Positions 2,865 to 28,047 of a DNA stretch of 40,172 nucleotides are shown piece by piece. Made by a program: the position numbers and the translations under genes. Below the pieces are notes generated by a model. It made no database searches and was not told the origin of the DNA. It saw nothing but the letters and a program-made list of their open reading frames with translations. The stretch's first letter is position 1; the number at the start of each line of letters is the position of its first letter. The DNA is from Candidatus Borkfalkia excrementavium (GTDB taxonomy: Bacteria; Bacillota; Clostridia; Christensenellales; Borkfalkiaceae), in the NCBI GenBank assembly GCA_019115945.1, contig DXCO01000013.1, positions 1 to 40,172 on the forward strand. Direction: 5' to 3'.

Positions 2865-2975
2865 ATGATGAGCACAAGAAAAAGGATAGGCATATCGCTT
2901 TTTGCTGTTCTGCTTATGAGCATTGCGGCATTTGCGATTGCCTTTTTTCTTCCTCAGAAAAGCGTATATGCGGCG
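2865..2975 (+). other. Signal peptide of the giant protein
   Basis: The encoded residues are a basic n-region (TRKR), about 22 hydrophobic residues and then SVYA followed by AED. This matches the AxA-like rule for signal peptidase I, with cleavage after residue 36 or 37. It implies that the following 4,600 residues lie outside the membrane. Confidence 0.88.
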
Positions 2976-5900
2976 GAGGATCCCTCCTCTTATACGGGCA
3001 TAACGGCGGAACTGAGGAGAGACGAGGAAAACAACATCGTCGATGCGGAGGGTGAAAACGTCCGCATTTTTGCGAACAGTTCGGAATTTTCGCTCGACGA
3101 TCTGAAACAGGTCCTCATCGTAAAGGCCGCACCCGTGGGCGGCGGAGAGGCCGTCGAACTTACGGCGGAGGATTACGAACTGAGCGGTTCTCTTACCGTC
3201 ATCGGCGATAACGAGATCACCGTTACGTTCGGCACGCATTCCGCGTCGGTCATGGTCCCCGCCGAGGGAGTCGAACTGGAAAAACTTGTGATCGACACAT
3301 CCGCATTGAATGGGGTCACGATTTTTGTAACGGATACCATCGACGTATTCAAAGAGTATATCAAAGTGACGGGCGTGCGGAACGACGGTTCCGCATACGA
3401 CGGGGGAGCGGAGATCAAAGATTATCAGATTTCCGGCGAAATGCGTCATGGATTGCAGACTTTCCGCGTTACCTTCGCGAGCGTTTCGGCCACTTTTGAA
3501 TATACGGTTACGCCGATAGAGGTCGTAGAAGCGACGGCAACCTCTACCCAAAACGGGCAGACAATTTATTCCACTGCAGATTCTACCACGCTGTCATGGT
3601 ATTTGTCTTTGAATGTTCGCTACAATAACGGGAATTCGGGCGTATATACTGGCGGTTTTACTGTTGAAGTTTGCCAAGAAACCGAGGATGATCCCGCGAC
3701 GCTTCGTCCCACGGCGGCCGAAGCAAAACTGCCTTCCTATGAGCGTAAAGTTGTGGCGCGCATACCCGTAGAGGGAAATGACGACGTCGTTTCCGAGCCG
3801 GTAGTGCTTACGATCACGCCTGCCACGATCTTGGGCATGACGGCACGTATTACCAATAAAGCATATTCAGCTTATACCTCTCTTTCAGCAGAGGATATAA
3901 CGGTTACGCTCATGTACTCTGACTTTACTCCCAGGACCCTTTCAGCCGGAGAGTATAAAGTCATTTACGATGAAGAGGACCTCGAAAGGGATTATTTCCT
4001 TGTCGGGGATACGACGCTGCAGATCGAATATACGGGATATGAATATCTTGAAAGCGGAGAGGTAGCCTCCGCCACGGTCAACAACGTCCGCGTCGTGCAG
4101 GCGGAGTATAATATGCCGACCATGAGCACGATGTCCGACGTGTATACGGGGCAGGAGATCATAAAATATCTCAACGGTTTCGACGATAAAAATATGGAGG
4201 TCTTAAACTCTACGGCCGACAGATACGAAGCGGGGCAAAACCAGAGCGGCGAAAGTGCCTTGCTCCTGTATGCCGTTTCAGCAGGCAAATATTCCGTTAC
4301 GATCAGGCTGAACAACGAGAACTACAAGTGGGGGAGCATCGGCGGCGACGGCGGTGTTCTCAACGATGACGGATCGATCACCTATACCTGGCAGATCACC
4401 AAAGTCAGCATTTCTGCCGGCGACGTCAGTCTGTCCATATCCGGCTGGGATTACGGAGAGTCCGGCCGTCCCTCCGTCACCGTGTACGCCACGGTCGGCG
4501 GCGACCGCATCGATATCGCCTCCGAGTTGCTGGAAGAAAACAAGATCACCTTCTATTACGGGGGCACGGTCAACGGCTCTTTGGACCCTTTCACCCTGGT
4601 AACGCAGGATATTGACAAGGTGCCCACGCAGGCGGGGTCGTATACCGTCTATATATCCATAGAAGAATCCACCAACTATTACGGTATCACCAAAAGCGAG
4701 ACGCGTAGATTTACGATAAACCGCGCTTCGGTGGCCATTCCCGTCCTTGAGGATAATAAACTCGAATATAAGGGAGAATTGATCCAACCTACCGTCGTCT
4801 CACCCGAAACGGACAAATATGACATCACAAACGCCGGGGGTACTGACGTCAAGACGGACGGTACGCGTTATACCGTCACGCTTACGCTGAAGGATAAAAA
4901 CAACTATCGCTGGTCTGACGGCAAGACGGACGATAAGGCCCTCGAATGGGATATCGTGCCGGCGGATAACGAACTCGACTTTACCGTCGGCGAGAATCTC
5001 GGCGGCGGTCTGCCCGGCTGGATCTACGGCAGCGAACCGTCATCTCCTCAAGTCACCGCAATTTCGTTCGGAAAGGACAGACTGGAAGAAATCGTCTATA
5101 CATATTACTATAAAGCGTGGAACGACTCCGACTTTACAAAAGTGACGGGCGATCTGTCGGCTGCGTCTCCCTCCGGCTATTACTACGCCGTCGCCTCCTT
5201 GACGGGCACGTCGAATTACTATGACGTCACCACCGAACCCGTCTATTTCATGATCTGGCGCGCCGAAGTTTTCGCAAATCCTTCGCTCGGGATTACGGAG
5301 TACGAGTATACCGGGTCACAGATCACCGTCGACGAAAGCGGTTTCGACAAATCGGATACCTATTATACCTATTCGGGCCACAGCGGCGAGGACGTGAAAG
5401 AGTATACGATCACCTTCACCCTTACCGAAAATTACAGGTGGAAAGGTACGGCCGTCGACGATGCCGTGCGCACGAAGAAGATCGTTTGGGAGATCTATAA
5501 AAAGGCGATCGACGCGCCCTCTTTGCAGAATCCGAGCGTCGTCTATGCTTCGGGCGGCAACGCGACCGAAGTGGACGGATATGACGTCGATACCATGCAG
5601 GTCGTAGAGGGGAGCGCGTCGGAAGGGCTCGTCTGGTCCTCTCTGCCTTCGATCTCTACGGCTGCGGGCGCAGGCGACTATACCATTCGTTTTGAGCTGA
5701 AAGACAAGGCCAACTGCGCCTGGGATTCGCGCGACGATGAAAGAGACTACATAGAACTCACCTGGACGGTCACGCAGGCGCCGAATAAACTGAAGGGTAC
5801 GCTCACCATTCGGGGCTGGACGTACGGGAAATACAATAGCGACCTCGGCGCATCGGGAATCTCTGCATCTTTCGGGACAGTGGAATATATCTATTATACG

Positions 5901-8900
5901 GATGAAGCCTGCGAAAACATAGTTTCAGCCTCTCCCGCTGAGATGGAAGCGGGCAACTACTGGGTGCGCGCCGAAGTCGTCGGCAATAAAGATTATGCTA
6001 GCATTCACTCTGACCCCGTTCCGTTCAAGGTGCTCAGGCAGGGCATCGCGCAGCCGACCATTTCTCCCGAGGGCGATTTGCCCTTTACCGGTGAAGAGCA
6101 GACCAAAACGCTGAGCGACTTTGACGCCGATCTCATGGAGTTTACCTACAGCGAAAACCTCACGGTCGGCGGCTCGGGCAGTACGCGCACTTTCACCGCG
6201 CGCAACGTGGCCGATGACTACGCCGTCACCGTCTCTTTCAAAGACGAGGTGATCAAAAATTATACGTGGGGCGAAGACGGCGACCCCGATCTCCAGCCGG
6301 CAGAAGAGATTTCGTTTACATGGAAGATCACCCCTGTCGAAAACCCGATCGATTTCGATTTATTTGCCGGTTGGGCATACGGCAATACGCCTTCGACGCC
6401 TTCGGCGACCGCATGGTACGACAATGCTGCAGTGCTCTTCAAATATTATAAAAAGGGCGCGGGAGACAAATGGCAGGAGATCACCGAAGGGATCGAGGAC
6501 AACCGCCTTCCCGCAGACACGCCCGCAGGCGAATACAAGATCGTCGCCTACGTGGAGAAGGGCGCAAATTACAATTATACCGAAGAGGAGCAGACCTTCA
6601 CCGTAAAGCAGAATACCGATGTCACGCTCACGGTCACCTTTGATCCGGACGGCTGGTATTATCAGGACGGCGAAAAGTACATCCTCACCGTAAGCAAAGC
6701 ATTCGTCGGCGAAACGGAGATCGACCTGAAAGATCTGGTCACCGTATCCTACCGCACCAAAGGCTGGACGGAGGATAGTTGGGGAGAGTGGCAGACCGTG
6801 TCTCTTTCCGGGTTTGCGTACACGTTCGCAAACGATCTCGCCGCGGGTGTGTATGAAGTTAAGGCAGTTGTTTCTGATACTGCCGACTATACCGAAGAGG
6901 TATGGAATCAGTCGTTTACGATTGACCGCCAGATCGTTACCGCGCCGAAAACTGCGGGCGAAGGCGATAACGGCAGGGTTCTGACTTATGCGGACGGCGC
7001 GGGGCTCGTTCCCGTCGCCATCGAATCCGCGGCGACAGACAGCCCTCTGTACGCGATCGTCGAATATATCAGAATGGGCAACGGAGATACGTCTTTAGGA
7101 CCTGCGAAACCGTTTGAAATCGGCAATTATTTCGTCGTTCTTGCATTGAACGACCCTGCAAATTATCAATGGGCGATCAACAATGACGAGCAGGGCAGCG
7201 ACGAAGACGAAAAGGACGAGATCGAAGACGTCTCTACGGGCAGGGTCAAATTGTGGTACGAGATCGCCCGCGACGATTACGAGGCCACCGTCACGATAAC
7301 GGGCTGGACCTACGGCGATACAGACTATGCCGACAACAAGCCCGCGATCGCTACGACTAACAGCGAAGCGCTCGCCGCGATCGAAAGGGGAGACGTTACC
7401 TATTGGTATACGGGGACTGTTTATAACGACAGCGATCCGTATACTTCCGAACCGAATAAAGATTACACGGTCGGAATTCCTCCGCAGGCGGGCGAATATA
7501 CGCTGCACGTGCGCATCGTCGAACTCGCCAACTACCGCGAAAAGACGATCACCTGCACCTTTACGATCACTCCGAAAGACATTACCGTCACCATCACGCC
7601 CAACGACGGCGTTTACGGCTCCACAAAGGCGGCGACCGCAACGCCGGACGGCCTTGCTTCGGGCGATTCGCTTGAAGGCCTCGGCATCGTATGGGCGTAT
7701 ACGGGCACGGGCACCCACGTCCCTCCCACCGATGTCGGCAATTATACCGTTTCCCTGACCGTTTCCAATAAAAACTATAATCTGACCGGGGTAACCGCCG
7801 CGGATTATATAATTACGCCCGCACCCCTTACGGTCACCGCAAAATCAGACGCGCAGGACAACACGATCACCTACGGCGACGAGGCTCCCAAATATTCCTT
7901 CACCGTTTCCGGCTGGCAGAATGGCGATCAGATACATCTCGAAGAACAGATTGCCGTTTCTGGTGATTATAAAAGGGGAGATGGTGTCGGAACATACCAT
8001 ATCACGCTCAACAAACCTGAATTTTCCAATTATGTCGTGACGTGGAACGACGCCGGACTGACCGTACAATGGCGCGAGATCAGCATCGACATCGGCGATC
8101 AGTCCGCCGGCTATACGGGCAAGGAACCGAAAGTCGACAACACGAAATACACCCTCTCGTCGGGCGAAGAACTGAGCGATCTTCCCGCAGGCATCACCCT
8201 TCTCAAAGAGGGGGGCGCCGCTGCGGGAACGTATGCCATTACGCTGGGCGAATGGTCGAATAAAAACTATGTCGTAACGCAGGCAAGCGCAGGTACCTTC
8301 ACGATCTCTCCCGCCGATTTTACGGGTAAAGAAACGGTCAAAGGCTTCGATGTAACTTATAAAGGGGAAGCGTACTCCATCTTTGAAAACGCCCTCTTAA
8401 GCGGCGTCAAAACGGTGGACGGCACCCAGTTGAGTGCCGAAAACTGGTCGTTTGAGGTCGACGGCGCGGCACAGACTTCCGTAAAAGACGTCAAAGTGGA
8501 AAACGGAGAAGTTTCCGCTTACGACGTTTCCTTTACGCTCACCGCGCCCAACCATAACGATTTCAAGAGTACGTTCGAGATCACGATCAGACAGGCGGCT
8601 CTCACCGTTTCCGCGCAGAACGCGACCGTCATATACGGCGATGCGGCGCAGGCGATGACCGTCAAATACAGCGGCTTTGTCGGCGGCGAAGGGGACGAAA
8701 ACGGCGCAAACGAGGGGATCCTCGGCGGCTCGCTCTCCTTTGCGTGGGATAAAGAATACGCAGTCGGCGATGCTGCGGACAGCGTCTATACCGCCACTCC
8801 GCAGGGCTTTACCTCCGATAACTATGCGATTCAATACAAGAGCGGCACGCTCACCGTTCAAAAGCGCGAAATCACCGTTGTCATCGGCAATCAGTCTTCC

Positions 8901-11900
8901 GTTTATACAGGCGAAGAACCTTTAATAAGTTCCGAATGTGGCATTGGATACACCTATGCCGAGGGCAGCCGCGAAGAATACGCCGGCGACACGGCAGGCA
9001 TCCTGCTCGAAAAGGAACCCGGTGCCGATTACAGAGAGAACGGTTATAAGATCACCCTGCAGGATTTCACGAATAAAAACTATATCGTCAACGTGCAGGA
9101 TAATAAGTCCGGCACTTTCACGATCGAAAAGGCAGACATCACCGTCACGCCGTTCGAGAACTTTACGTTCACCTACGACGGCAAAGACTGGGTGATTTTG
9201 GACCACGTGAACGACTATGCTGTCACCGTAAACGATCAGGAAGCGAACTGGTCGTTCACAGCGGACGACATGTCCGTATCCGTCCTCAAAGACGTCAAAG
9301 TGGATGCGGAAGGCGCGGCCGTCGCGTACACCGTCGACTATATCATCACCGCGGCAAACCACAACGATAAGCCGGGTATGTTTACCGTGCTCATCCAAAA
9401 GGCAAAGGCAGAGATCTTCTGGACGGAAGATTCCTTCACCTACGACGGCACCAACCAGCGCGAAAAAGTCGAAGCGGAATATACCGATCTCGAATTGGGT
9501 GGCAGGATCGGCCTGCTCGTTACGCTCGACGGAGAATTCCGCGATCATAACGGCGGCGCGAAGTATACCTTTACCGCCGCATTCAACGACGCGGACAATG
9601 AAAAGCACAACTACTATATCGCGGAAGAGGACCGCACGAACGAATATACGATGAAGCAAAGGGCGCTCACCGTCTCGGTCGACGATGCGTCCGTAATGTA
9701 CGGCGAGTCCGTCTCGCAGGATTCCTTCTCCGTCACGTATACGGGGCTTGCGGAAGACGAGGCCGCAAACGCCGACGACAAGTCCGCCCTCGACGCAAGG
9801 CTCGAGTATACTTGGACGTATCAGGCGGGCGATTGGGTCACCGCATCGGGCAAAGAGTATACCGTCGGGCTGAACCCGATCGTGTACGACAATTATTCCA
9901 TTACTCTTGAAAAGGGTGCGCTCACCGTCACCGCCCGTCCCATCCGCGTAGGCATCGATTATAAAACGTCTGTCTACGGCGAAGCATTGCTCGGTTTGAC
10001 CGCGCACGTGCTCGAGGCGGAAGGGGAGTATTACGCCCTGTATACGGGCGACGTCGGCAAAGACGAGCAGATTTATACCGTCGGTTTTCAGGACGGCATC
10101 ACGCCCAAGAGCGCGGATACGTACGAAGTCGTCGGCACGCACCTGAACGGTTCGTCCGATCTCGGCGTCAATTACGATATCACTTTCTGCGGCCAGGTGG
10201 CGGAGAACGGTGAGTATATCTCCGGGCAGCCCGCTCATTACGTGATCACGAGGCGGTCTGTCGACAGCACCATCACCGTACCGGACGTTCTCACTTATGA
10301 CGGAGACGAGAAGGAGGCCACCTTTACAGTCTCTACGGGCGATTTTGCCGATGGCGATAACGTCACGACCGAACTGTATTATTTCGGCACGCTGGCAAAC
10401 GGAGACCCGTATTATTCGGCAGAAGAGCCCACGTTGCAGGCTCCTACGGATGCGGGTTCCTACACCGTCGTCCTGGTCATAACGACGGAGAACGAAGACG
10501 ACTACGTGTTCTCGACGCCCTCTACCGCATTCAAGATCTCAAAAGCCGAGTATAACTGGTACGGGATCGATTTTACCGAAAAGCCGTATACACGTGTGTA
10601 TGACGGTCAGGCGCATTCGCCGCAACTGACCAAAATGCCCGAAGCGGGTGAAGACGAGATCGTTCCGGATGTGACCTTCGATAAGGGCATCACCGACGTC
10701 ACGGGCGCTGGCGGCGTCACTTTCAAGGCGTATTTCTCTTCCGACAGTTATAACTATACTCTGCCGTTCACGGAATTGAGCGTAAAGGTCATCATCACTC
10801 CCGTAACGGTTACGATCGACTGGACGGAAGAGACGGAGTTCTTCTACGACGGCACCAATCAGAGCGGCAAGATCTCCGCCACGTATAAAGATGTTTTCGG
10901 CGGCGTGCAGACGCTTGTCCTCTCTCGGCCCGAATTCAAAGATTACAGCCCTGATTTGTATTCTTTCGAGGTCACGGGATTCTCTGCAGGGGATAACCCC
11001 GTCAACGGCTACGGCCAATACAACTACATTCTCCCGACGGACAGTTCGCTGACCCGCGGCTACTCGATGCAGAAGCGCGCCGTCGAGATCTATGCGAAGG
11101 ACGCCGAAATGTATTACGGCGATTCCGTGCCCACCTCGTCCGAGATCATGGCATGGGGCTATCGCGAGGGATCCGCAGAATTTGTTGCGGAGGACGGTAT
11201 TCGCTTCGCGGTGTATACGAACGCGACGGATTCGAGCGAGATCACTACGGAGACGCGCACTTACTTTACTTATATCGTCGAGCCCGTTCCGGGCAGCGGC
11301 GGTTATAACGCCCGTCTTAAAAATTACGACATCACGGGCCTGGGCGTTTCGGGGAACGTCGGCGTCATGACGGTACTGCCCCGCCCGATCGAGATCGTGA
11401 TCAACGATCAGACGGCGGTATACGACGGCGAAGAACCCGACGTATTGCAGGAACTCGGCGAAACGGACGGCTATATCCTTGCGGAAGGCAGCAAATCGAT
11501 CGTTGCGGGCACCGATCCGGGCATCGTGCTTAAAAAAGCATCCGGAGTCGATGTGAGCGATTACGAGATCACGCTGGACTCTCGGGCGAATGAAAATTAC
11601 GCCGTTACCGTCAAAGACGGCAAGGCAGGCACTTTCATGATCACGTCCGCCGCACTCAGTTACGATATTTCCCCGTATGAACAGGAATATATCGGCGAGG
11701 CCGTCGATTTTGCGACATACAGTGCCGAGACGGTGCATTCCCGCGACGCCGATTCCGTCGAATGGTCGTTCAGCCTGACGGAGGGCAGCGGCTATGTCTC
11801 GTTTGATGAACTGAAACCGAACTTTGTCAACGTGCAGACGACGGTCGTTTACTACAAACTCACGGCCGATAACCATCAGGAAGTTACGGGCAAGATCACG

Positions 11901-14900
11901 GTGACCATCTCGCAGGGCGCCGTCGATCTGCAAGTCACGTTCAACCCCTCCGGTTGGACGTATAAAGACGAGTCCTCCCTTTATCCGCTCACGTTTACCG
12001 CAAAAGTCGGCAGTCTCGACCTCACAGAGTCCGTCAAAGTAACTTACAGTTACAAGGGCTGGAGCGAAGGGGAAGACTGGAGCGAGATCGGCGAAGAAAT
12101 GGATGAGTATGCCGCCGCGGGCTATTATAAAGTCGTCGTCTCCGTCGGCGAAACGGATAACTACGTTCTTTCCCAGCCGTACACCCGTGAATTTACCGTT
12201 GCCAAATACATCCTCAACGTCTCGTGGCAATATACGAACGTCGGGCTCGAACAGGTAACGGAAGGGCAGATCGCGACAAATACGATCGCCAACTTCGATC
12301 CCGAGATCATGACGGTCACGGGCGTGAACATCGATGCGGACGGAAGTTCCGTCACCATTCCCGCGGCGTTGGGCACCTATACGGTAACGGTTTCCATCCG
12401 TTCCGAGCATCTGAACAATTACGAATGGGGCAACCCCGATACGGGCAACACCGCCAACAGAACGATCTCCTTTACCGTTTCCACGGCTACGAACTATATC
12501 ACCATCACGATCGACGAGGAGAGTTGGGTTTACGACGGCAATACTCCTTGGGAGCACGGCCTGAAAGCGACCGCCCTGTCCGATCCTGACGGCGTCAACA
12601 TCACGTTCATGTTTGCCAGGGGAGAAGAGGGCCAGTCTGAAGAGGATGCCGCCCAGATCGCTTCCTACGTTTCCGTTGCGCCTTCGGACGCGGGCGTGTA
12701 CTGGGTACGCGCGTTTGCGCCGGGCGGCGGAGATTACGGTGCGGGTTACGGCTACAAGATGTTCATCATCGAACAGGATACCGTCACGCGCGTATCCCAG
12801 CCGGATGAGATCTATTCCGTCGAATACGAGCGCAACACCTTGCAGACGTATACTCCCGAAGGCTTTGATCCGGACTTGATGCAGATCGCGGGCAACACGG
12901 CGCGCGTCGCGGGTGACTATGATGCGGTCATCACCTTAAAAGATCCGACCAATTATAAATGGGCGGACGGCGAGGCGAACGACGAAATCGACATCGCCTG
13001 GAAGATCGCGAAACAAAAACTTGCGCTTCCCACCCTGGGCGAAACGGACGGACAGAGCGCCGTAAGCGAATATGATCCCGCAGCCGATACGATTTTCATC
13101 AACGCATTCGACGATCTTACGATGGGTATCGGCAGAACGCAGGACGCGACGTATAACGTCGACGAAGAGGGCAGGCCGGTCATGGTCGCCTCCTCGGCGG
13201 GCACGCATATCCTCTATATCAAACTCAAAGATACGGCCAACTACGAGTGGGCAGACGACACCGTGTCCGACAAGCCGCTCACCTGGACGATCGAGACCGC
13301 CGTATTCGATATTGCCGCCGCCGTGCGGTACGAGGCGCAGAGCCTGCCTTACACCGGAACGGAACAGAGGATCGAATTTACGCTCACGGGCGAAGATCTT
13401 CCCGCATACGTGCGCTACAGTTATTCCGACGGGTTCACCGATTCGGGCAGCCGCACGCTTTCCGTGACCTTCACTTCCGCCGACAGAAACTATCAGTTCA
13501 CGCAAAACGGCGAAAAGGTAAATTCGGTCACGCTCAGGGCACAACTCACGATCACCCCGTTTGTGATCGAAGAGATCAACTGGACAGAGCAGACGCATTA
13601 CACTTACAGCGGCGAAGACCAGAGCGGCCTGATCGGCGCGTACTACGTCAACGCCCTCGGCGTGCAGACGACGCTCGCAGTCACGTCTCCGGAGGAAGGA
13701 TTTGTCGATTACAGCGAATCCGGATACGAATTCACGGCAGACTTTGCCGGAATGCAGGGCGGTAACGAAAGGCATAATTATGTATTCTCCGAAGATCTGC
13801 TTGCGGGCAAAAATTTGCCGGTAAAAACTTATTACATCGACAAACAGGCGGTTACCGTAACGGTATCCGACCAGACAGCGGTATACACGGGCGAAGAGGC
13901 CGTCCTCATGCAGGGCGAAGAAAGATATACCGTAAGCGCCGAAGTTTATACGGGCTTTGCGGTCACGATCGTCTTTGCAGACGAAGCCGAGCACGTGAAT
14001 GCGGGCGGTTATGCGATTACGGGCACGTTCTCGGGCGAAGAGGAGATTTCCGAAAATTATCAACTCACCTTTACGCAGGCAACGTTGACGGTCACGCCCG
14101 CGCCCGTTACCCTCACCATCGTTTCGGGCGGCGGCGTTTACATGGGCGAGATTTCGCCCGCCGCCGTGCCGGCAGATTCCGTGGTCGGCATCGTCGGCGA
14201 AGACAGCGCCGAAGCGTTCATCGAAAACGATCTGATCCTTACCTATGAAGGGCAGCCGAATGACCCTGCCGCAGAGTACCACAGCGGCACAGACGTTCCC
14301 TCGCTTGCGGGTGTATATACCGTGCGCGCGTCTGTCAAAGAGGGCGGCAATTATTCCCTGCAGGGCACGAGCGTCGCGTTCATCGTAGAACGCAGAGCGC
14401 TTACATTTGCCGCGGAAGACCAGTTCTATACGGGCAGCGCGATTACGGTTGCGGAAGAAAATCTCGCGGGCCAGCGTTACGGCGCCGTGTTCGGAGAGAC
14501 CTTTGTTTTCTCCGCCAACGATGGCAGAACGGAGGTCGGCGCGGCGAGCGTCACGCTCAGGCTCAACGATACGTACAATTATTGCTGGGCTTATCCCGAC
14601 GATGAACCGAGCGAATGCACGCTCGAGTGGTATGTGATCCAGAGCGAGAATGTCCTCGAAGCAGACGCATCCCTTACGGACGATACTTGGACGTACGGCG
14701 AACAGATGCCCGAGATCACGGCGCCTGTCGGAAAATTCGAAGGCGAGATCGTCTACAATTATTATTATAAATCGGGCGAATCGTATTTCCTGCTCGGCGG
14801 GCAGCCTGTCAATGCCGGAACCTATTATCTGCGCGCAACCATCGTCGGAAATGAAAACTTCACCGACGTATCGGGCGACTATATCCGTTTCACCATCGAA

Positions 14901-17900
14901 GCGGACGTTTACGACATGCAGTCCGTTTCCCTGTCCGATGCGAAAGTCACATACGACGGGAACGAACATTCCCTCGCGTTTACGGGCGATCTGCCCGTCG
15001 GAAACGACGATCTGCCCATCGGCGTAGCCGTCTCCTACGAAGGGGACAGAGTCAACGCAGGTACGGTGCAGGTCACGTACACCTTCACCTCCGCAAGCGG
15101 CAACTACGTATTCGTAACGGAGGGCGGCGAGCGCGTCAATTCCCTCTCGCTTACGGCAACGCTCACCATCGAGCCGCGCAGGATCGATTCCGTGCACTGG
15201 TCGGGCAGCGATTACGTGTACGATGCGAAAGACCACGCGACCGACATCGCCGCGTCCTATACCGACGTGAACGGGGAAACCGTTTCCCTGGCCGTATCCG
15301 TACAGGGCGGCGCGTTCAGGGATTACAGCGCGGACGGCTATGTGTTCACCGCCTCGTTCGCGAGCGAAGAGGGGAGCGCGGAGCGCAGGAACTACCTCCT
15401 TCCCGACGAGATCACGCAGACGTATTTCATCAGACAGAAAGAGATCACCGTTCAGATCGGCAAAGACGCGGAAACGGAGTACGTATACGACGGCGAAGGA
15501 AAACCCGTATCGGTCAACTTTGTCGGCGCGGCGGACGAAGTCGAATACGCGCTTACCTACACGGGTACGCCGAACGGAACGGAAGAAAACAGTTATCAGT
15601 CGGATGCGGCCCCGAGCGCCGCGGGCAGTTATACCGCCTCCGTCGCCCTGAAAGATCCCGATGGCAATTACAGGCTGATCGGTGCCCGCTCGTTTGCCTA
15701 TGCGATCGACCGCGCTGCCGTGGAAGCCCCCGACCTTACCGCAGTTTCGAAAGTCTATAACGGCAAAGAACAGACGAGCGGATTTACGGCGGGCGAAGGA
15801 TATACCGTCGTCAACGCCAAAGGCACGGATGCGGGCGAATATGCCGCAGTGTTCTCTCTCGAAGACAAAAACAACACGGCATGGAGCACGGGCGGCACAG
15901 ACGATCTGTTTGCAGTGTTCGCCATTACTCCCGCCGGGCAGGGCGACCTTACGGTCAGCGCGCCCGATATGGACGGCTGGATCTACGGCGAAACGCCCTC
16001 CGCACCCTCGGGCGCCGTCGCGAAGTTTGAGGGCGGCGAAGAGATTGCGGTCACCGGATATCTCTATTCCGACAGCGAAGACGGCGCATATACGAGCGTC
16101 AAGCCTTCCGATGCGGGCACGTATTACGTCAAAGCGTACCTTGCGCGGACGGACAATTACGGCGAGGCGTTCTCCGAAGCAACGGCGTTCACCGTTTCCA
16201 AAGCGGATTACGACATGAGCGGCATCACCTTTGCATCGGCGTCTGTCGTCTATGACGGGTCGCTGCATACGCTTACGATTGCGGGCACGCTGCCCGAGGG
16301 AGTGCGCGTCACGTATGAAAACAACGTGGCTGCGGCGCCCGGCGTGTACGAAGCGGTCGCCTATTTTGAAGGCGATTCGAAAAATTACAACGAGATCGGC
16401 GCCCTGCGCGCGACGCTCACCGTCCGCGCGGCAGAACTTTCCGTCACGATCGAAGAGGAATTCCGCGAAAGGGTCGTCGTATCCTCGCAAGGCGGTTTCG
16501 ATCCTTCCCTCACGCTCGTCATCGAAGAACTGACTAAAGAAACGTATTCTGAATACGATCTTGCAGGGTTCGAAGGTTACGAGATCGGCGCTGGCTACGG
16601 CCTTTCGCTGCAAAAGGGCGGCTCGGTCGTACAGCCCGAAGGGTCTGTCGTCGTGCGCTTGCTCATTCCCGAAAACATGCGCGGCAAAGACTTCCTGCTC
16701 CTGCACCGCACGGGCGGGACGCTTGAAAAAGTCGAGTACACAGTGTACGGCGACTATGCAGTATTTACGGTCGATTCCTTCTCCGAATTCCTGTTTGTAA
16801 CGGAGATAGAAGCGGCAGACCTCATGTGGCTGGTCATCCTCCTCGCGTGCGTTGCGGGCGTGGAACTGATCCTGCTCGCGCCCATCTTGATCCGCCGTAA
16901 AAAGATGGTGCCTGTAGGCCCCGACGGCGGCTCCGACAGCCCCGACGGCGGCTCCGACAGCCCCGACGGTGAAGACGGACCCGACGGCGGGACGGACGGT
17001 CCCGACGGCACAGACGAGGGCGGCGAACTTGGAACGGAAGAAGAGAAAACGGAAGGGGAGGCCGGTCCGCAGGATCCCGCTCCCTCCGAGGGCTCCTCCG
17101 TAAAGATCAACAATTTTGCGGTGCTCCCTCTGTTTGCGCTTTTGGCGGCGATCCCGAGCGGTCAGATCGCCGCGATCGCCGCGCTCGGCGCGGCAGTCGC
17201 GGGGCTCGCCGTAGCGGATAGCGTGCTGTTTTTCAAAAAGAAAAAATTAAAAGAAGAACCTGCCGAACCGCAGGAAGAGATTGCGGAAGAAGTCCCCGCC
17301 GAAGAACCTGCCGAGGAGATCGCGGAAGAAGCGATCCCTGCCGATGCGCCCGAAGAAGAGCCGCTCGCCGAACAATTCCCCGAAGAAGAGGCCGTTGCCG
17401 CAGAGGAAGAGACGGCCGCGGCCATACAGGATGCATCGTTGTCCGCGCAGGAGAGCGAAGTCCCCGAACCGGAAGAAGCGCCCGTTTCCGAACCGGAAGA
17501 AGCGGTTCAGACGGAGGAACAGGGAGAAATTCCCTCCGCGGAGGAGCCAGAGCCGTCCCTTGCCGCCGAAGAGCCTGCGGCAGAGGAAGAAGAGGCTTTG
17601 GCGGAAGAATTTGCGGAGGACGATTTTACCGACGAAGATTTCGAATTTTTCGACGACGAAGAAGAGGACGACGAGGATGACGAAGACTTCACCGACGATT
17701 TCGACGTCGAAGAAGAGGAAGTGCCCGCCGAACTTGCCGCCTCTTCCGACGGCGCGGAACGGGATGGCGTTTCAGCCGCCGCGATCCTTCCGCTCCTGCC
17801 GGTCGCGCCGGAGGCGGAAGAAAAGAAGAAGGTCTATATCCGTTATAATTACAGTTTCCGCGCAAAACTCATCCAGTCGGGCGAGCAGATCCAGTCCAGA

Positions 17901-18719
17901 TACGGCGAACTTGCCGATGAGATCAAAGCGTACGCCGCTTCGCGCGTCAAAATGTCCGAAAGTTGGAAGCAGGTGCGCGTTTACGCGGGCAGAAACACGC
18001 TGGCGCTCATTCTGTTCAAGGGGCGCAAATTGTGCATCGCCTTCGCGCTCGATCCCGCCGAATATGCCGATACGAAATACCGCGGTATAGACTTATCCTC
18101 GATCAAGCGCTTTCAGAAGACGCCGATGCTGCTCAAACTCACCTCCCGCCGCCGCACGATATACGCGAAATATTTGTTCATGCAGGCTGCCGCGAAAGTA
18201 GACGCGGTCCGCGGTTCGGTCAGGCGCACGCGCTTCTCTCTGCCTTACCGCACGACGGAAGAACTCGTCGGGGCAAAACTCGTCAAGATCCTCTCCAGCG
18301 GAAACGTGGGCGAAAACACCGAGATCGTACAGGCAGACGTTGCCGCAATGATCCGCGAAAAGGTATCTCTGCGCGAAGCGCAGGCGGCCCTCTCCGACGA
18401 AGTTGCGGCGGAATTGGTCGAGCACGAAACGAAAGGGGATTTTTCCGAAGAGCCGGAAGAAAGACCGGAAGGTCCCGATACCAAGGGCAGGCGCGCGATC
18501 GTCAATATCGATACGCTCTCGAAAAACTTTGCGGCGGACGACGTGGTGACGCTCGAAGTGCTCAAAGCAAAGGGACTCGTGCCGAAAAAGGCGTCCTCGC
18601 TCAAGGTCTTGGCGCGCGGTTTCATCGATAAACCCTTGCTCGTCGAAGCGCACGATTTTTCCCTCGATGCGGTCAAAATGCTGCTTCTCACGGGCGGCAA
18701 AGCGATCCGGATCAAATGA
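2865..18719 (+). CDS. Giant exported modular repeat protein with membrane anchor and uL15-like cytosolic tail
   Basis: A single uninterrupted frame of 5,284 residues. Residues 1-36 are a Sec signal peptide (MMSTRKR, hydrophobic core, VYA/AED cleavage). About 38-412 resemble bacterial Ig-like domains. About 413-4525 are a long array of MBG/YDG-like beta modules, with recurrent GWxYG, YTGEEP, WTExxxxYDG and LKDxxNYxW motifs. A juxtamembrane domain precedes a transmembrane segment at 4653-4676, followed by RRKK. Then come a PDGG(S/T)D linker, a second hydrophobic stretch (4751-4790), an acidic linker, a conserved basic domain (about 4987-5110) and a uL15-like end (5209-5284). No LPXTG motif was seen. 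The ribosome-binding site GGAGGT precedes the ATG. The gene is monocistronic, with its own promoter and terminator. The likely role is a cell-envelope adhesin or scaffold anchored in the membrane; the cytosolic function is unknown. The modules are seen directly; the topology is inferred. Confidence 0.95.
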   Translation: MMSTRKRIGISLFAVLLMSIAAFAIAFFLPQKSVYAAEDPSSYTGITAELRRDEENNIVDAEGENVRIFANSSEFSLDDLKQVLIVKAAPVGGGEAVELTAEDYELSGSLTVIGDNEITVTFGTHSASVMVPAEGVELEKLVIDTSALNGVTIFVTDTIDVFKEYIKVTGVRNDGSAYDGGAEIKDYQISGEMRHGLQTFRVTFASVSATFEYTVTPIEVVEATATSTQNGQTIYSTADSTTLSWYLSLNVRYNNGNSGVYTGGFTVEVCQETEDDPATLRPTAAEAKLPSYERKVVARIPVEGNDDVVSEPVVLTITPATILGMTARITNKAYSAYTSLSAEDITVTLMYSDFTPRTLSAGEYKVIYDEEDLERDYFLVGDTTLQIEYTGYEYLESGEVASATVNNVRVVQAEYNMPTMSTMSDVYTGQEIIKYLNGFDDKNMEVLNSTADRYEAGQNQSGESALLLYAVSAGKYSVTIRLNNENYKWGSIGGDGGVLNDDGSITYTWQITKVSISAGDVSLSISGWDYGESGRPSVTVYATVGGDRIDIASELLEENKITFYYGGTVNGSLDPFTLVTQDIDKVPTQAGSYTVYISIEESTNYYGITKSETRRFTINRASVAIPVLEDNKLEYKGELIQPTVVSPETDKYDITNAGGTDVKTDGTRYTVTLTLKDKNNYRWSDGKTDDKALEWDIVPADNELDFTVGENLGGGLPGWIYGSEPSSPQVTAISFGKDRLEEIVYTYYYKAWNDSDFTKVTGDLSAASPSGYYYAVASLTGTSNYYDVTTEPVYFMIWRAEVFANPSLGITEYEYTGSQITVDESGFDKSDTYYTYSGHSGEDVKEYTITFTLTENYRWKGTAVDDAVRTKKIVWEIYKKAIDAPSLQNPSVVYASGGNATEVDGYDVDTMQVVEGSASEGLVWSSLPSISTAAGAGDYTIRFELKDKANCAWDSRDDERDYIELTWTVTQAPNKLKGTLTIRGWTYGKYNSDLGASGISASFGTVEYIYYTDEACENIVSASPAEMEAGNYWVRAEVVGNKDYASIHSDPVPFKVLRQGIAQPTISPEGDLPFTGEEQTKTLSDFDADLMEFTYSENLTVGGSGSTRTFTARNVADDYAVTVSFKDEVIKNYTWGEDGDPDLQPAEEISFTWKITPVENPIDFDLFAGWAYGNTPSTPSATAWYDNAAVLFKYYKKGAGDKWQEITEGIEDNRLPADTPAGEYKIVAYVEKGANYNYTEEEQTFTVKQNTDVTLTVTFDPDGWYYQDGEKYILTVSKAFVGETEIDLKDLVTVSYRTKGWTEDSWGEWQTVSLSGFAYTFANDLAAGVYEVKAVVSDTADYTEEVWNQSFTIDRQIVTAPKTAGEGDNGRVLTYADGAGLVPVAIESAATDSPLYAIVEYIRMGNGDTSLGPAKPFEIGNYFVVLALNDPANYQWAINNDEQGSDEDEKDEIEDVSTGRVKLWYEIARDDYEATVTITGWTYGDTDYADNKPAIATTNSEALAAIERGDVTYWYTGTVYNDSDPYTSEPNKDYTVGIPPQAGEYTLHVRIVELANYREKTITCTFTITPKDITVTITPNDGVYGSTKAATATPDGLASGDSLEGLGIVWAYTGTGTHVPPTDVGNYTVSLTVSNKNYNLTGVTAADYIITPAPLTVTAKSDAQDNTITYGDEAPKYSFTVSGWQNGDQIHLEEQIAVSGDYKRGDGVGTYHITLNKPEFSNYVVTWNDAGLTVQWREISIDIGDQSAGYTGKEPKVDNTKYTLSSGEELSDLPAGITLLKEGGAAAGTYAITLGEWSNKNYVVTQASAGTFTISPADFTGKETVKGFDVTYKGEAYSIFENALLSGVKTVDGTQLSAENWSFEVDGAAQTSVKDVKVENGEVSAYDVSFTLTAPNHNDFKSTFEITIRQAALTVSAQNATVIYGDAAQAMTVKYSGFVGGEGDENGANEGILGGSLSFAWDKEYAVGDAADSVYTATPQGFTSDNYAIQYKSGTLTVQKREITVVIGNQSSVYTGEEPLISSECGIGYTYAEGSREEYAGDTAGILLEKEPGADYRENGYKITLQDFTNKNYIVNVQDNKSGTFTIEKADITVTPFENFTFTYDGKDWVILDHVNDYAVTVNDQEANWSFTADDMSVSVLKDVKVDAEGAAVAYTVDYIITAANHNDKPGMFTVLIQKAKAEIFWTEDSFTYDGTNQREKVEAEYTDLELGGRIGLLVTLDGEFRDHNGGAKYTFTAAFNDADNEKHNYYIAEEDRTNEYTMKQRALTVSVDDASVMYGESVSQDSFSVTYTGLAEDEAANADDKSALDARLEYTWTYQAGDWVTASGKEYTVGLNPIVYDNYSITLEKGALTVTARPIRVGIDYKTSVYGEALLGLTAHVLEAEGEYYALYTGDVGKDEQIYTVGFQDGITPKSADTYEVVGTHLNGSSDLGVNYDITFCGQVAENGEYISGQPAHYVITRRSVDSTITVPDVLTYDGDEKEATFTVSTGDFADGDNVTTELYYFGTLANGDPYYSAEEPTLQAPTDAGSYTVVLVITTENEDDYVFSTPSTAFKISKAEYNWYGIDFTEKPYTRVYDGQAHSPQLTKMPEAGEDEIVPDVTFDKGITDVTGAGGVTFKAYFSSDSYNYTLPFTELSVKVIITPVTVTIDWTEETEFFYDGTNQSGKISATYKDVFGGVQTLVLSRPEFKDYSPDLYSFEVTGFSAGDNPVNGYGQYNYILPTDSSLTRGYSMQKRAVEIYAKDAEMYYGDSVPTSSEIMAWGYREGSAEFVAEDGIRFAVYTNATDSSEITTETRTYFTYIVEPVPGSGGYNARLKNYDITGLGVSGNVGVMTVLPRPIEIVINDQTAVYDGEEPDVLQELGETDGYILAEGSKSIVAGTDPGIVLKKASGVDVSDYEITLDSRANENYAVTVKDGKAGTFMITSAALSYDISPYEQEYIGEAVDFATYSAETVHSRDADSVEWSFSLTEGSGYVSFDELKPNFVNVQTTVVYYKLTADNHQEVTGKITVTISQGAVDLQVTFNPSGWTYKDESSLYPLTFTAKVGSLDLTESVKVTYSYKGWSEGEDWSEIGEEMDEYAAAGYYKVVVSVGETDNYVLSQPYTREFTVAKYILNVSWQYTNVGLEQVTEGQIATNTIANFDPEIMTVTGVNIDADGSSVTIPAALGTYTVTVSIRSEHLNNYEWGNPDTGNTANRTISFTVSTATNYITITIDEESWVYDGNTPWEHGLKATALSDPDGVNITFMFARGEEGQSEEDAAQIASYVSVAPSDAGVYWVRAFAPGGGDYGAGYGYKMFIIEQDTVTRVSQPDEIYSVEYERNTLQTYTPEGFDPDLMQIAGNTARVAGDYDAVITLKDPTNYKWADGEANDEIDIAWKIAKQKLALPTLGETDGQSAVSEYDPAADTIFINAFDDLTMGIGRTQDATYNVDEEGRPVMVASSAGTHILYIKLKDTANYEWADDTVSDKPLTWTIETAVFDIAAAVRYEAQSLPYTGTEQRIEFTLTGEDLPAYVRYSYSDGFTDSGSRTLSVTFTSADRNYQFTQNGEKVNSVTLRAQLTITPFVIEEINWTEQTHYTYSGEDQSGLIGAYYVNALGVQTTLAVTSPEEGFVDYSESGYEFTADFAGMQGGNERHNYVFSEDLLAGKNLPVKTYYIDKQAVTVTVSDQTAVYTGEEAVLMQGEERYTVSAEVYTGFAVTIVFADEAEHVNAGGYAITGTFSGEEEISENYQLTFTQATLTVTPAPVTLTIVSGGGVYMGEISPAAVPADSVVGIVGEDSAEAFIENDLILTYEGQPNDPAAEYHSGTDVPSLAGVYTVRASVKEGGNYSLQGTSVAFIVERRALTFAAEDQFYTGSAITVAEENLAGQRYGAVFGETFVFSANDGRTEVGAASVTLRLNDTYNYCWAYPDDEPSECTLEWYVIQSENVLEADASLTDDTWTYGEQMPEITAPVGKFEGEIVYNYYYKSGESYFLLGGQPVNAGTYYLRATIVGNENFTDVSGDYIRFTIEADVYDMQSVSLSDAKVTYDGNEHSLAFTGDLPVGNDDLPIGVAVSYEGDRVNAGTVQVTYTFTSASGNYVFVTEGGERVNSLSLTATLTIEPRRIDSVHWSGSDYVYDAKDHATDIAASYTDVNGETVSLAVSVQGGAFRDYSADGYVFTASFASEEGSAERRNYLLPDEITQTYFIRQKEITVQIGKDAETEYVYDGEGKPVSVNFVGAADEVEYALTYTGTPNGTEENSYQSDAAPSAAGSYTASVALKDPDGNYRLIGARSFAYAIDRAAVEAPDLTAVSKVYNGKEQTSGFTAGEGYTVVNAKGTDAGEYAAVFSLEDKNNTAWSTGGTDDLFAVFAITPAGQGDLTVSAPDMDGWIYGETPSAPSGAVAKFEGGEEIAVTGYLYSDSEDGAYTSVKPSDAGTYYVKAYLARTDNYGEAFSEATAFTVSKADYDMSGITFASASVVYDGSLHTLTIAGTLPEGVRVTYENNVAAAPGVYEAVAYFEGDSKNYNEIGALRATLTVRAAELSVTIEEEFRERVVVSSQGGFDPSLTLVIEELTKETYSEYDLAGFEGYEIGAGYGLSLQKGGSVVQPEGSVVVRLLIPENMRGKDFLLLHRTGGTLEKVEYTVYGDYAVFTVDSFSEFLFVTEIEAADLMWLVILLACVAGVELILLAPILIRRKKMVPVGPDGGSDSPDGGSDSPDGEDGPDGGTDGPDGTDEGGELGTEEEKTEGEAGPQDPAPSEGSSVKINNFAVLPLFALLAAIPSGQIAAIAALGAAVAGLAVADSVLFFKKKKLKEEPAEPQEEIAEEVPAEEPAEEIAEEAIPADAPEEEPLAEQFPEEEAVAAEEETAAAIQDASLSAQESEVPEPEEAPVSEPEEAVQTEEQGEIPSAEEPEPSLAAEEPAAEEEEALAEEFAEDDFTDEDFEFFDDEEEDDEDDEDFTDDFDVEEEEVPAELAASSDGAERDGVSAAAILPLLPVAPEAEEKKKVYIRYNYSFRAKLIQSGEQIQSRYGELADEIKAYAASRVKMSESWKQVRVYAGRNTLALILFKGRKLCIAFALDPAEYADTKYRGIDLSSIKRFQKTPMLLKLTSRRRTIYAKYLFMQAAAKVDAVRGSVRRTRFSLPYRTTEELVGAKLVKILSSGNVGENTEIVQADVAAMIREKVSLREAQAALSDEVAAELVEHETKGDFSEEPEERPEGPDTKGRRAIVNIDTLSKNFAADDVVTLEVLKAKGLVPKKASSLKVLARGFIDKPLLVEAHDFSLDAVKMLLLTGGKAIRIK
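2976..4100 (+). other. N-terminal Ig-like region of the giant protein
   Basis: About 375 residues form roughly four beta-rich units of the bacterial Ig-like type. Each has a hydrophobic strand, an LTAxDYxLSG or LSAGEYKVIY-like segment, and a closing strand such as NEITVTFGTHSASVMV or DTTLQIEYTGY. The stretch at about 3530-4000 is visibly more AT-rich than its surroundings. Domain borders are approximate. Confidence 0.6.
4101..16437 (+). repeat. Array of diverged beta modules (MBG/YDG-like) in the giant protein
   Basis: At least four recurring module types are visible. Type 1 carries GWxYG (near bases 4441, 5017, 5815, 6369, 7300 and 15972; variants at 6649, 11953, 12520 and 14682). Type 2 carries Q(S/T)xxYxGEEP-like motifs (near 8083, 8873, 11391 and 13852). 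Type 3 carries W(T/S)xxxxYxY(D/S)G (near 9409, 10806, 13570 and 15187). Type 4 carries an LKDxxNYxWxDG motif before a WxI strand (near 4900, 5700 and 12940). ITYGD or VIYGD MBG-type units lie near 7860 and 8630. The modules are diverged in DNA as well as protein, so this is an old array rather than a recent expansion. Confidence 0.8.
16438..16815 (+). other. Juxtamembrane domain of the giant protein
   Basis: About 125 residues differ from the repeat modules. They include the segments VVVRLLIPENMRGKDFLLLH and YAVFTVDSFSEFLFVTE. A closing FxVDxFSEFxF-type strand just before the membrane anchor is common in large Clostridia surface proteins. Confidence 0.6.
16821..16892 (+). other. First transmembrane segment of the giant protein
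   Basis: Twenty-four hydrophobic residues starting LMWLVILLACVAG (residues 4653-4676) are followed by RRKK. By the positive-inside rule this puts the downstream region in the cytoplasm. No sorting signal for sortase is present. Confidence 0.85.
16919..16969 (+). repeat. 21-bp tandem repeat in the PDGGSDS linker
   Basis: Two identical 21-base copies (16919-16939 and 16940-16960) and a partial third encode PDGGSDS units. Degenerate PDGxDGPDG units follow. In-frame copy-number change by slippage would leave the reading frame intact. Confidence 0.85.
17115..17234 (+). other. Second hydrophobic stretch of the giant protein, probable membrane hairpin
   Basis: Forty apolar residues (4751-4790) contain a central IPSG turn and are followed by KKKK. 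They could form two short membrane helices, which would keep the C-terminus cytosolic. A single long helix would instead put the tail outside, which is less consistent with the basic and ribosomal-protein-like domains that follow. Confidence 0.6.
17250..17775 (+). other. Acidic low-complexity linker of the giant protein
   Basis: About 175 residues are dominated by Glu, Ala and Pro (EEPAEEIAEE-type repeats). They end in a run rich in Asp, Glu and Phe around DEDFEFFDDEEEDDEDDEDF. The segment is probably disordered and strongly negative, directly preceding a basic domain. Confidence 0.85.
17823..18195 (+). other. Conserved-looking basic domain of unknown function in the giant protein
   Basis: Starts KKKVYIRYNYSFRAKLIQSG and continues with a WKQVRVYAG strand, LFKGRKLCIAFAL and KRFQKTPMLLKL. 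It is compact, aromatic and Arg/Lys-rich, unlike the repeat modules. I recall similar segments beside uL15-like tails in other Clostridia proteins, but cannot name a family. Confidence 0.55.
18489..18716 (+). other. uL15-like C-terminal domain of the giant protein
   Basis: The last 76 residues match the plan of the C-terminal half of ribosomal protein uL15 (L18e/L15 fold). In order they show VNIDTLSKNF, a VTLEVLKAKGLV helix, SLKVLARG, LLVEAHDFS and a GGKA-type end. Authentic uL15 normally ends in a similar VKAHxFSxxAxxxIxxAGG pattern. No rest of uL15 precedes it. Confidence 0.75.
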
Positions 18720-25116: not shown

Positions 25117-26952
25117 ATGAGCAAAAAGAAAAAAGGGGACAGGCGCACGTACATCGGCGGTCAGGCCGTGCTGGAAGGCGTCATGATGCGCGGCAAAACG
25201 GCGTATGCGACCGCCGTGCGCGATCCCGAAGGCAACATTCAGGTGGAGAGCCGCAGGCTCAAAACCTCCAAAAAGCAAAAGATCGTCTCGAAGATCCCGC
25301 TCGTGCGCGGCGTGGTGAATTTCGTCTCCTCGCTCGTGGTGGGGGCCAAGATCCTGATGCGCAGCGCCGAAGTATACGGCGACGTCGGCGAGCCTTCTAA
25401 ATTCGAAAAGTGGTGCGAGGAAAAACTGCATCTGAACGTCATGTCCGCAGTTTCGTTCATCGCTACCCTTCTCGGTATCTTGCTCGCCGTGGGGCTGTTC
25501 GTATTTCTTCCCATGCTTTTGGCCGATCTTCTCGTCGATTCGGGAGACTGGCTTGTCCGCTACAGCATCGGCTACAATCTGATCCAGGGCGGGCTCCGTC
25601 TGATCATTTTTATCTTATATATTGTCGCGATCACGGCGATGAAGGACATCCGCCGCGTATTCATGTATCACGGCGCCGAGCATAAAACGATCACCTGTTT
25701 CGAAAAGGGTATGCCTCTGACGCCCGAAAACGCAAAAAAATGTTCACGCATCCACGACCGCTGCGGCACGACCTTTCTCTTTCTGGTCATGGCGGTCAGC
25801 ATCATCGTCTTTTCCGTCGTCAACTGGGTGTGCGACGAATATCTCGACATTTTCAATTACGGAAAAGTCGTCAATTTTCTCATTCAGTTTTCCATAAAAA
25901 TTTTGTTCCTGCCTTTTGTCGCGGGGCTTTCGTACGAAGTTTTGAAACTTCTTGCCAAATCGCAGAGCAAGATCCTGCTCCCCATCAAGGCGCCGGGCTT
26001 TGCCCTGCAAAAACTGACCACGCGCGAACCGACGGACGACATGCTCGAAGTGGCGATCGCCGCCTTTAACCGCGTGTACGACATGGACGAGGATCCCTCG
26101 CGTCCCGAAACGGATTTCACCGTTTCCAAATCGGTCAAAAAATACACGGAAGAACTGAAAGCGATCTTTGCGGAGAAGGGGATAGACGAGAGCGACGCAG
26201 AGTGGCTGGTTTCCCTCAAAACGGGTGTCCCGCGCAGTGAACTTGCCCAAACGGACACTCTCATTGTGCCGAGCAAAGTGCGCGAACTCGACGAGATCGC
26301 CGGCGAGCGCCTCACGGGGAAGCCCCTTTGGTACATCCTGGGCACCGCAGAGTTTTACGGTTACGAGATCAAGGTGGACGGGCGCGTATTGATCCCCCGT
26401 CCCGAAACGGAACTTCTCGCGGAAAATGCGGTCAAAAGTCTGGAAGAGGGAGACAAGGTGCTCGATCTCTGCACGGGCAGCGGCTGCGTGGCGATCGCCG
26501 TATGCAAACAGGCCGCGGAAAAGAAACTGGGCGTTTCCGTCACGGCCTCCGATATCAGCAAAGACGCGCTCGAACTTGCGGAAGAAAACGCGCGCGAAAA
26601 CGGCGCGGACATTAAATTTATCGAGAGCGATCTCTTTGCCTCCGTCCGCGGCAAATTCAACCTGATCGTCAGCAATCCGCCCTACGTAAAGAGCGGGGAA
26701 CTGAAAGAACTGCAGAAAGAAGTGAAAGATCACGAACCCGCGCTCGCGCTCGACGGGGGCGAGGACGGATTGGATTTCTACCGCCGCATCGCGGCGGAGG
26801 CGCCCAAACATCTCGTCAAGGGCGGCACGCTCCTTCTGGAATGTGGTGCCGGGCAGGCGCAGGAGATCGTCAAACTTCTCGGAAAATTCGAATATACGAT
26901 GATCATGCGCGACTACAACGACGTAGAGCGCTTTATCCGCGCGGTGCTGTAA
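25117..26952 (+). CDS. prmC: DUF1385 membrane protein fused to PrmC (release-factor glutamine methyltransferase)
   Basis: A 611-residue two-part protein. Residues 1 to about 325 are a complete DUF1385 domain: YIGGQAVLEGVMMRGK near the N-terminus, several membrane segments, and YHGAEHKTITCFE. About 340-611 are a complete PrmC, with an N-terminal helical domain containing GKPLWYILG, RPETE, the SAM site DLCTGSGCVAIAV and the catalytic NPPY at 520-523. PrmC methylates the Gln of the GGQ motif in release factors, and prfA follows 21 bases later. DUF1385 and prmC are usually separate adjacent genes in Clostridia. Here the frame is continuous, with an acidic linker (MDEDPSRPETD). The fusion would tether the methyltransferase to the membrane. 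The gene lacks a strong Shine-Dalgarno. Confidence 0.92.
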   Translation: MSKKKKGDRRTYIGGQAVLEGVMMRGKTAYATAVRDPEGNIQVESRRLKTSKKQKIVSKIPLVRGVVNFVSSLVVGAKILMRSAEVYGDVGEPSKFEKWCEEKLHLNVMSAVSFIATLLGILLAVGLFVFLPMLLADLLVDSGDWLVRYSIGYNLIQGGLRLIIFILYIVAITAMKDIRRVFMYHGAEHKTITCFEKGMPLTPENAKKCSRIHDRCGTTFLFLVMAVSIIVFSVVNWVCDEYLDIFNYGKVVNFLIQFSIKILFLPFVAGLSYEVLKLLAKSQSKILLPIKAPGFALQKLTTREPTDDMLEVAIAAFNRVYDMDEDPSRPETDFTVSKSVKKYTEELKAIFAEKGIDESDAEWLVSLKTGVPRSELAQTDTLIVPSKVRELDEIAGERLTGKPLWYILGTAEFYGYEIKVDGRVLIPRPETELLAENAVKSLEEGDKVLDLCTGSGCVAIAVCKQAAEKKLGVSVTASDISKDALELAEENARENGADIKFIESDLFASVRGKFNLIVSNPPYVKSGELKELQKEVKDHEPALALDGGEDGLDFYRRIAAEAPKHLVKGGTLLLECGAGQAQEIVKLLGKFEYTMIMRDYNDVERFIRAVL

Positions 26953-26967: not shown

Positions 26968-26973
26968 ATGTTT

Positions 26974-28047
26974 ATGATTAAAAAACTGGAAGACATTTTG
27001 GGCAGATATCTGCGCCTCTCCGAAGAAATGGCGGATCCCGCCGTCATTTCCGACACCGAGCGCTGGACGAAATGCGCCAAGGAACATGCCGAATTATCCG
27101 AAGCGGCGGAAAAATATCTCGAATACAAGCGCACGGAAAAGCAGATGAACGACGCCTTTTCCGTTGCGGAAACGGAGACCGACCGCGAGATGAAGCAACT
27201 GCTCACCGACGAGGGGTACGCCCTCAAAGAGAAACTTTCGGAAATTTACGGCGAATTGCGCATCCTTCTGCTACCCAAAGACAAAAACGACGAGCGCAAC
27301 GTCGTAATGGAGATCCGCGGCGGCGCGGGCGGCGACGAAGCGAACCTCTTTGCGGCGGAACTGTATTCCATGTACTGCCGCTATGCGGAGAGCATGCGCT
27401 GGAAAACGGAGATCATCGAGGCGAATGAGACGGAACTCGGCGGCATGAAAGAAGTCGTGTTTACCGTTTCCGGCAAGGGGGTTTACAGCAAACTCAAATA
27501 CGAAAGCGGCGTGCACCGCGTGCAGCGCGTTCCCGAAACGGAGTCGCAGGGCAGGGTGCATACGTCCACTGTCACGGTCGCGGTGCTTCCCGAGCCCGAA
27601 GACGTGGAAGTGGAGATCAACGAAAAAGATCTGAAGATCGACACTTACCGTTCGGGCGGCGCGGGCGGACAGCATATCAATAAGACGGAAAGTTGCATCC
27701 GCATCACCCATCTTCCCACGGGCATCGTCGTGACCTGTCAGGACGAACGCTCGCAGATCAAAAACCGCGAAAAGGCGATGAAGGTGCTCAAAAGCCGCCT
27801 TTACGATTTTTACAATTCCAAATATCAGAGCGATTATGCGGAAAACAGGAAAAGCCAGGTCGGCACGGGGGACAGGAGCGAGCGCATCCGCACGTACAAC
27901 TTCCCGCAGAACCGTGTCACCGATCACCGCATCGGCCTGACGCTGTATTCGCTCGATCATTTCATGCTCGGCGACATCGGCCAGATGCTCGAAGCGCTCG
28001 CCATCGCCGACAGAGAAGCGCAGTTATCCTCATCGGAAGAAGGTTGA
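26974..28047 (+). CDS. prfA: Peptide chain release factor 1
   Basis: A 357-residue cytosolic factor that recognises UAA and UAG stop codons and triggers peptide release. GGAGGDEANLFAAEL lies in the central domain. PET in HRVQRVPETESQGR is the codon-recognising PxT motif. GGQ at residues 231-233 (RSGGAGGQHINKTES) is the catalytic motif, methylated by PrmC, whose gene lies just upstream. The length is standard. It is co-transcribed with the DUF1385-PrmC gene and probably with the aminotransferase that starts 42 bases after its stop. Confidence 0.96.
   Translation: MIKKLEDILGRYLRLSEEMADPAVISDTERWTKCAKEHAELSEAAEKYLEYKRTEKQMNDAFSVAETETDREMKQLLTDEGYALKEKLSEIYGELRILLLPKDKNDERNVVMEIRGGAGGDEANLFAAELYSMYCRYAESMRWKTEIIEANETELGGMKEVVFTVSGKGVYSKLKYESGVHRVQRVPETESQGRVHTSTVTVAVLPEPEDVEVEINEKDLKIDTYRSGGAGGQHINKTESCIRITHLPTGIVVTCQDERSQIKNREKAMKVLKSRLYDFYNSKYQSDYAENRKSQVGTGDRSERIRTYNFPQNRVTDHRIGLTLYSLDHFMLGDIGQMLEALAIADREAQLSSSEEG

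Follow-up and report, generated by a model that had tools for sequence, protein, structure and literature searches.

We propose that the 5,284-codon gene lying in a 40,172-nucleotide window (the whole stretch analyzed, contig DXCO01000013.1 of Candidatus Borkfalkia excrementavium) codes for a membrane-anchored surface protein. With somewhat better than even confidence, we read its cytosolic end as a lineage-specific docking module that incorporates a repurposed fold of the ribosomal protein uL15. The features of the gene and its product are the following:

2853-2859, + strand: Shine-Dalgarno sequence GGAGGTG, a few bases 5' of the ATG of the giant gene
2865..18719, + strand: giant surface protein gene, 5,284 codons plus stop, zero internal stops
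2865..2972, + strand: signal peptide (residues 1-36), with a hydrophobic stretch at 6-34, called from sequence and hydrophobicity
2973..16787, + strand: predicted extracellular part (residues 37-4641), made of imperfect beta-rich repeats; acidic, pI 4.2
16788..16898, + strand: membrane span 1 (residues 4642-4678), with RRKK at its end
17097..17237, + strand: probable two-span hairpin (residues 4745-4791), with KKKK after it and the C terminus inside
17250..17822, + strand: acidic E/P/A-rich linker (residues 4796-4986; 191 residues), net charge -78
17826..18218, + strand: basic YjbR/DUF5655/frataxin-like domain (residues 4988-5118), net charge +17, pI 10.2
18360..18434, + strand: conserved helix motif EAxxxLSDEVAAELV (residues 5166-5190)
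18486..18716, + strand: uL15-like domain (residues 5208-5284), with the PF00828 match at residues 5212-5280 (18498-18704)

The relationship of the C-terminal domain to uL15 is recovered from either direction. The Pfam profile of the family (PF00828) matches residues 5212-5280 with an E-value of 1.6e-10 and 41.7 bits (cut-off 21.5), detects the same tail at E 3.1e-11 when searched against the source genome, and matches 71 of 71 relatives. A reverse search with a profile built from 13 tails gave a match in 387 of the 398 genomes of a phylum sample; the matches listed outside the source genome involve the uL15 part only and are rplO-length frames, with E-values down to 4e-19. Since PF00828 finds the tail and the tail profile in turn finds rplO-length frames, the homology is clear both ways. 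When PDB sequences were searched using the tail profile, the matches listed were ribosomal proteins, one of them named only “uncharacterized protein.” An AlphaFold2 model of residues 4986-5284 (mean pLDDT 90.6) gave a concordant picture: its last ~85 residues match ribosomal chains of the uL15 family with Z-scores of ~12 (best 12.3, for 9tvu_L), and superposition on 4v8a_AP yields 1.8 A over 76 residues at 37% identity. The rplO model TIGR01071 aligns via its C-terminal half only (positions 72-142; 33 bits versus a cut-off of 78), placing the tail outside the full-length uL15 equivalog, as the glycine/arginine-rich N-terminal half that threads the rRNA is absent from it. Nor is the tail the uL15 gene of the ribosomal cluster: the source genome has a separate, normal rplO, encoded on a different contig alongside secY and rpsE. 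The original prediction had described a single frame joining exported repeats, an anchor, an acidic linker, a basic domain and a uL15-like end, and had looked to a profile match, a superposable fold and an independent rplO; it is borne out in each of these respects.

The basic domain, which is likewise real, displays a predicted fold common to YjbR, DUF5655, YdhG (DUF1801) and the frataxins, with a pLDDT of 94.6 when modelled alone. Its best fold neighbor is E. coli YjbR (2fki; Z 8.3 over 99 residues), followed by PSPTO_3016 (3h9x; Z 8.1) and YdhG-like proteins (Z 7.6, and 7.5 for 2oc6), with CyaY/frataxin (Z 6.7) and the DNA-binding domain of T4 MotA (Z 6.4) being weaker neighbors. At the sequence level, the giant's own copy has no match in Pfam, and relatives' copies match weakly, four to DUF5655 and five to YjbR (in some relatives, E 6.9e-5 for PF18899 and 0.0043 for PF04237); a PDB sequence search with the YjbR-like profile returned zero matches. 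YjbR and YdhG are free small proteins, in contrast to the domain of this module, which is membrane-tethered via acidic linkers and often tandem. All 56 of the 56 YjbR-like domains measured are basic (mean pI 9.8), an acidic 100-residue stretch lies ahead of the domain in 67 of 71 cases, and the uL15-like tails too have a net positive charge. What the YjbR-like domain contacts is probably nucleic acid or some other polyanion.

With regard to topology, 61 short forms were compared, and 54 of them have more positive residues after than before the membrane span; several large relatives combine a signal peptide with one clear anchor span near the tail; in a few members, the frame read has no membrane span. 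Taken together, the positive-inside pattern and the pairing of a signal peptide with a single clear anchor span make a cytosolic tail the consistent reading of these sequences. In the giant, a short acidic stretch separates span 1 from the probable two-span hairpin, and a hairpin-like segment is also found at the start of short paralogs. In Bacillota, the intracellular tail of wall-anchored surface proteins is usually short. The giant has both hallmarks of the MBG-repeat surface proteins, namely, a signal peptide and MBG domains, with MBG_2 (PF18676) being significant over six stretches in the middle third of the ectodomain in a Pfam search (E 8.9e-40). Like the MBG/B-repeat giants of Bacillota, it has a signal peptide and an outer part consisting of a long series of beta-repeats, but it falls outside the LPXTG/sortase class of surface proteins: the source genome (~90% complete) has no match to the sortase domain (PF04203), and ~490 residues, apparently cytosolic, follow the last span instead of a short tail. 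Another point of comparison is offered by the giant extracellular proteins of Apilactobacillus kunkeei, which have 3,000 to 8,000 residues, a signal peptide, repeats and a distinctive C-terminal domain, but are reported to lack transmembrane domains and to end in a wall-binding SH3b-like region; the stem “ribosom” is absent from the text describing them (PMC12863079). The window's giant is similar to these in size, signal peptide, repeats and the possession of a distinctive C terminus, and differs in its membrane anchor and uL15-like end.

As the original prediction had anticipated, the tail recurs on other surface proteins. Within the order, 42 of the 297 genomes searched have it, spanning at least eight family groups (nine with L064), in frames of up to 5,398 codons; 19 of the 62 tail frames listed exceed 900 codons and eight exceed 3,000. 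The YjbR-like domain or the full module is present in 122 of the same 297 genomes, and a class sample of 391 genomes yielded no uL15 tail outside the order. A scan of named genomes recovered 112 loci from uncultured Clostridia and some genomes labelled Bacilli, the genera including Candidatus Borkfalkia, Coproplasma, Gallimonas and Protoclostridium. The uL15-tailed frames in 40 relatives range from 232 to 6,374 codons, mostly alongside an rplO-length frame in the same genome. Within the source genome itself, the same inner module comes after one N-terminal span and a stretch resembling a B-repeat in a 516-residue paralog, and a 279-residue protein has a YjbR-like domain without uL15. The order of anchor, acidic linker, YjbR-like domain and uL15-like domain is kept in independent genomes, with one to three YjbR-like copies in related giants, while the outer parts vary: some are MBG repeats, B-repeats or further kinds of ectodomain, and others amount to no more than a short N-terminal anchor. 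In many cases the YjbR-like domain is present and the uL15-like part is not, so that the latter must be dispensable for some such proteins. Nearly all relatives have the helix motif ahead of their uL15-like domain, and in a subset of loci (L041 from G039, L056 from G032, L135, L142, L144 and L145) these two are found without a YjbR-like domain; hence, the motif plus the uL15-like domain seems to be the minimal unit.

Several further observations concern the spread of these domains. The order to which G1076 belongs (a genome with the label Bacillales) is a second one with matches, mostly to the YjbR-like domain alone, in 65 of its 98 genomes. Six of its proteins (L193-L198) possess multi-span membrane parts, acidic or proline-rich linkers and then a C-terminal YjbR-like domain, and are candidates for an uncharacterized membrane protein family. 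One genome (G562) shows a local expansion, with at least seven divergent uL15-tailed frames that reach 1,943 codons. At L096:6001-7044 and upstream, a 789-residue protein has an apparently identical internal duplication of the YjbR-like domain and linker, which reads as a recent tandem copy. We also considered a viral origin for the module and rejected it, there being no related locus among viral contigs.

In a tree of 80 tails and 33 rplO sequences, the two groups fall on either side of one fully supported branch, with the few alignment columns limiting finer detail. The best explanation is that the uL15-like end goes back to an ancient duplicate of uL15's C-terminal half. Among 13 genus orthologs, the YjbR-like and uL15-like parts have mean identities of 77% and 74% (66-74% from minimum to mean for the latter), against 21-33% for the anchor, repeat and linker; the C-terminal half of rplO is 86% identical across seven genomes compared. 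Eighteen core positions of uL15 are conserved in tails and rplO alike. In the last helix, positions charged in rplO are hydrophobic in the tails (L5267, V5270, a hydrophobic residue at 5274, and L5275), and K5264 and E5271 of rplO are replaced by D and K; the helix pattern and the rplO letters suggest that these changed positions are exposed. The invariance of the FSLxAVKM motif stems in part from the search pattern, and the PF00828-collected set shows the same trend. Compared with uL15 proper (rplO, PF00828, TIGR01071), the tail shares the fold, 28-37% identity over the C-terminal half and the 18 core positions, but it lacks the N-terminal half, is appended to membrane proteins, forms a separate branch and has a hydrophobic last-helix face, with rplO being retained in addition. 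Given the shared core positions and the net positive charge, the tail may have residual RNA binding.

Because the inner module is conserved and the outer part interchangeable, we favor its interpretation as a docking handle, one module carrying many different outer parts being what is expected of a common inner handle. From what the sequences and models provide (anatomy, homology, predicted fold, recurrence, a single branch and the conservation pattern), we infer the cytosolic location of the tail, its binding of a partner and the handle function. The module would begin with an acidic spacer, long and flexible, that keeps the YjbR-like domains (basic, and one to three in number) and the uL15-derived domain away from the membrane; the helix motif would be its remaining component. 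The uL15-derived part, having presumably shed the rRNA-threading half and acquired a hydrophobic, strongly conserved last-helix face, would bind either a partner in the cytosol that is itself conserved or the helix motif ahead of it, in cis or between chains, and the YjbR-like domain would most likely touch a polyanion such as nucleic acid. Such a handle could retain, cluster or position surface proteins. Several observations weaken this interpretation: distant genera have no neighbor family of the module genes in common, shared neighbors being seen mostly in closely related genomes; the YjbR-like domain is frequently present without a uL15-like part; a few members show no span in the frame read; and the tail keeps the 18 core positions of uL15 and a net positive charge. 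The neighbors of the giant gene, an NDP-sugar epimerase and a Na/H exchanger, are uninformative regarding function.

The original prediction had offered three roles for the ribosomal fold, of which that of a repurposed protein-binding fold fits best. The coupling of the protein's synthesis to the membrane is unsupported, and the tail is made last. Binding of ribosomes or rRNA, whereby the uL15-like and YjbR-like domains would tether ribosomes or their precursors to the membrane near the site of surface-protein export, draws on the true homology to uL15 with its 18 common core positions, on the basic character of the YjbR-like domain and on the positive charge of the tail. Nevertheless, we regard it as unlikely: the half of uL15 that threads the rRNA is missing, a normal rplO is encoded separately, the exposed helix positions have turned from charged to hydrophobic with the K5264/E5271 pair changed to D/K, and synthesis of the protein reaches the tail only at its end. 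A related alternative is that the YjbR-like domain binds DNA, with the uL15-like domain merely aiding dimerization, so as to link the surface to the nucleoid. All YjbR-like domains tested are basic and the MotA DNA-binding domain is among the fold neighbors, but that match is weaker than those to YjbR and YdhG, and the same fold is seen in frataxins, which are not known to bind DNA; we consider this alternative rather improbable. The broader proposition that the copied ribosomal half ties surface structures to ribosomes or the nucleoid across the whole lineage is also a long shot, though, if true, it would mean that adhesion is physically connected to the gene-expression machinery.

Two further alternatives take the tail to be without significance. 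It could be a vestigial fold that serves no specific purpose and persists by being harmless, and many genomes with YjbR-like tails indeed have no uL15 tail; the uL15-like part is nonetheless 66-74% identical in genus orthologs in which the linker and anchor are at ~20-30%, making this alternative very improbable. Alternatively, the tail might belong to a separate gene joined by a chimeric contig or a misread frame, the source genome being a draft of 42 contigs. However, there are zero stops between the anchor and the tail, an identical order is found in many independent genomes, and the giant of another species (L071) is co-linear over 2,581 alignment columns at 30% identity, spanning the repeats, anchor and tail. 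Since the arrangement recurs independently and is co-linear with L071, the frame is neither chance nor chimera; we reject a chimeric assembly at the sequence level and give it a negligible probability.

The proposed docking module defines an order-wide family with a structured, conserved inner region of several hundred residues that includes a captured ribosomal fold, and it presents a concrete target for studying how uncultured gut bacteria hold their surface proteins or sense with them. It clearly exemplifies the reuse of a ribosomal protein fold beyond the gene that normally encodes it, and PF00828-based annotation could mislabel the tailed surface proteins as ribosomal. Both the fold and surface-repeat proteins are known, the combination is new and its use is probably new; in the open-licence literature, we found nothing on uL15 fusions or on extraribosomal uL15-like tails of membrane or surface proteins.

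Two other genes in the window are worth recording. A 611-residue frame (25117-26952) fuses DUF1385 (PF07136) to a PrmC-type release factor methyltransferase, with prfA (26968-28047) directly after it, and a glycoside hydrolase of the GH123 family (PF13320; E 8.9e-97) is encoded at 37951-39597, in the same window as the giant.
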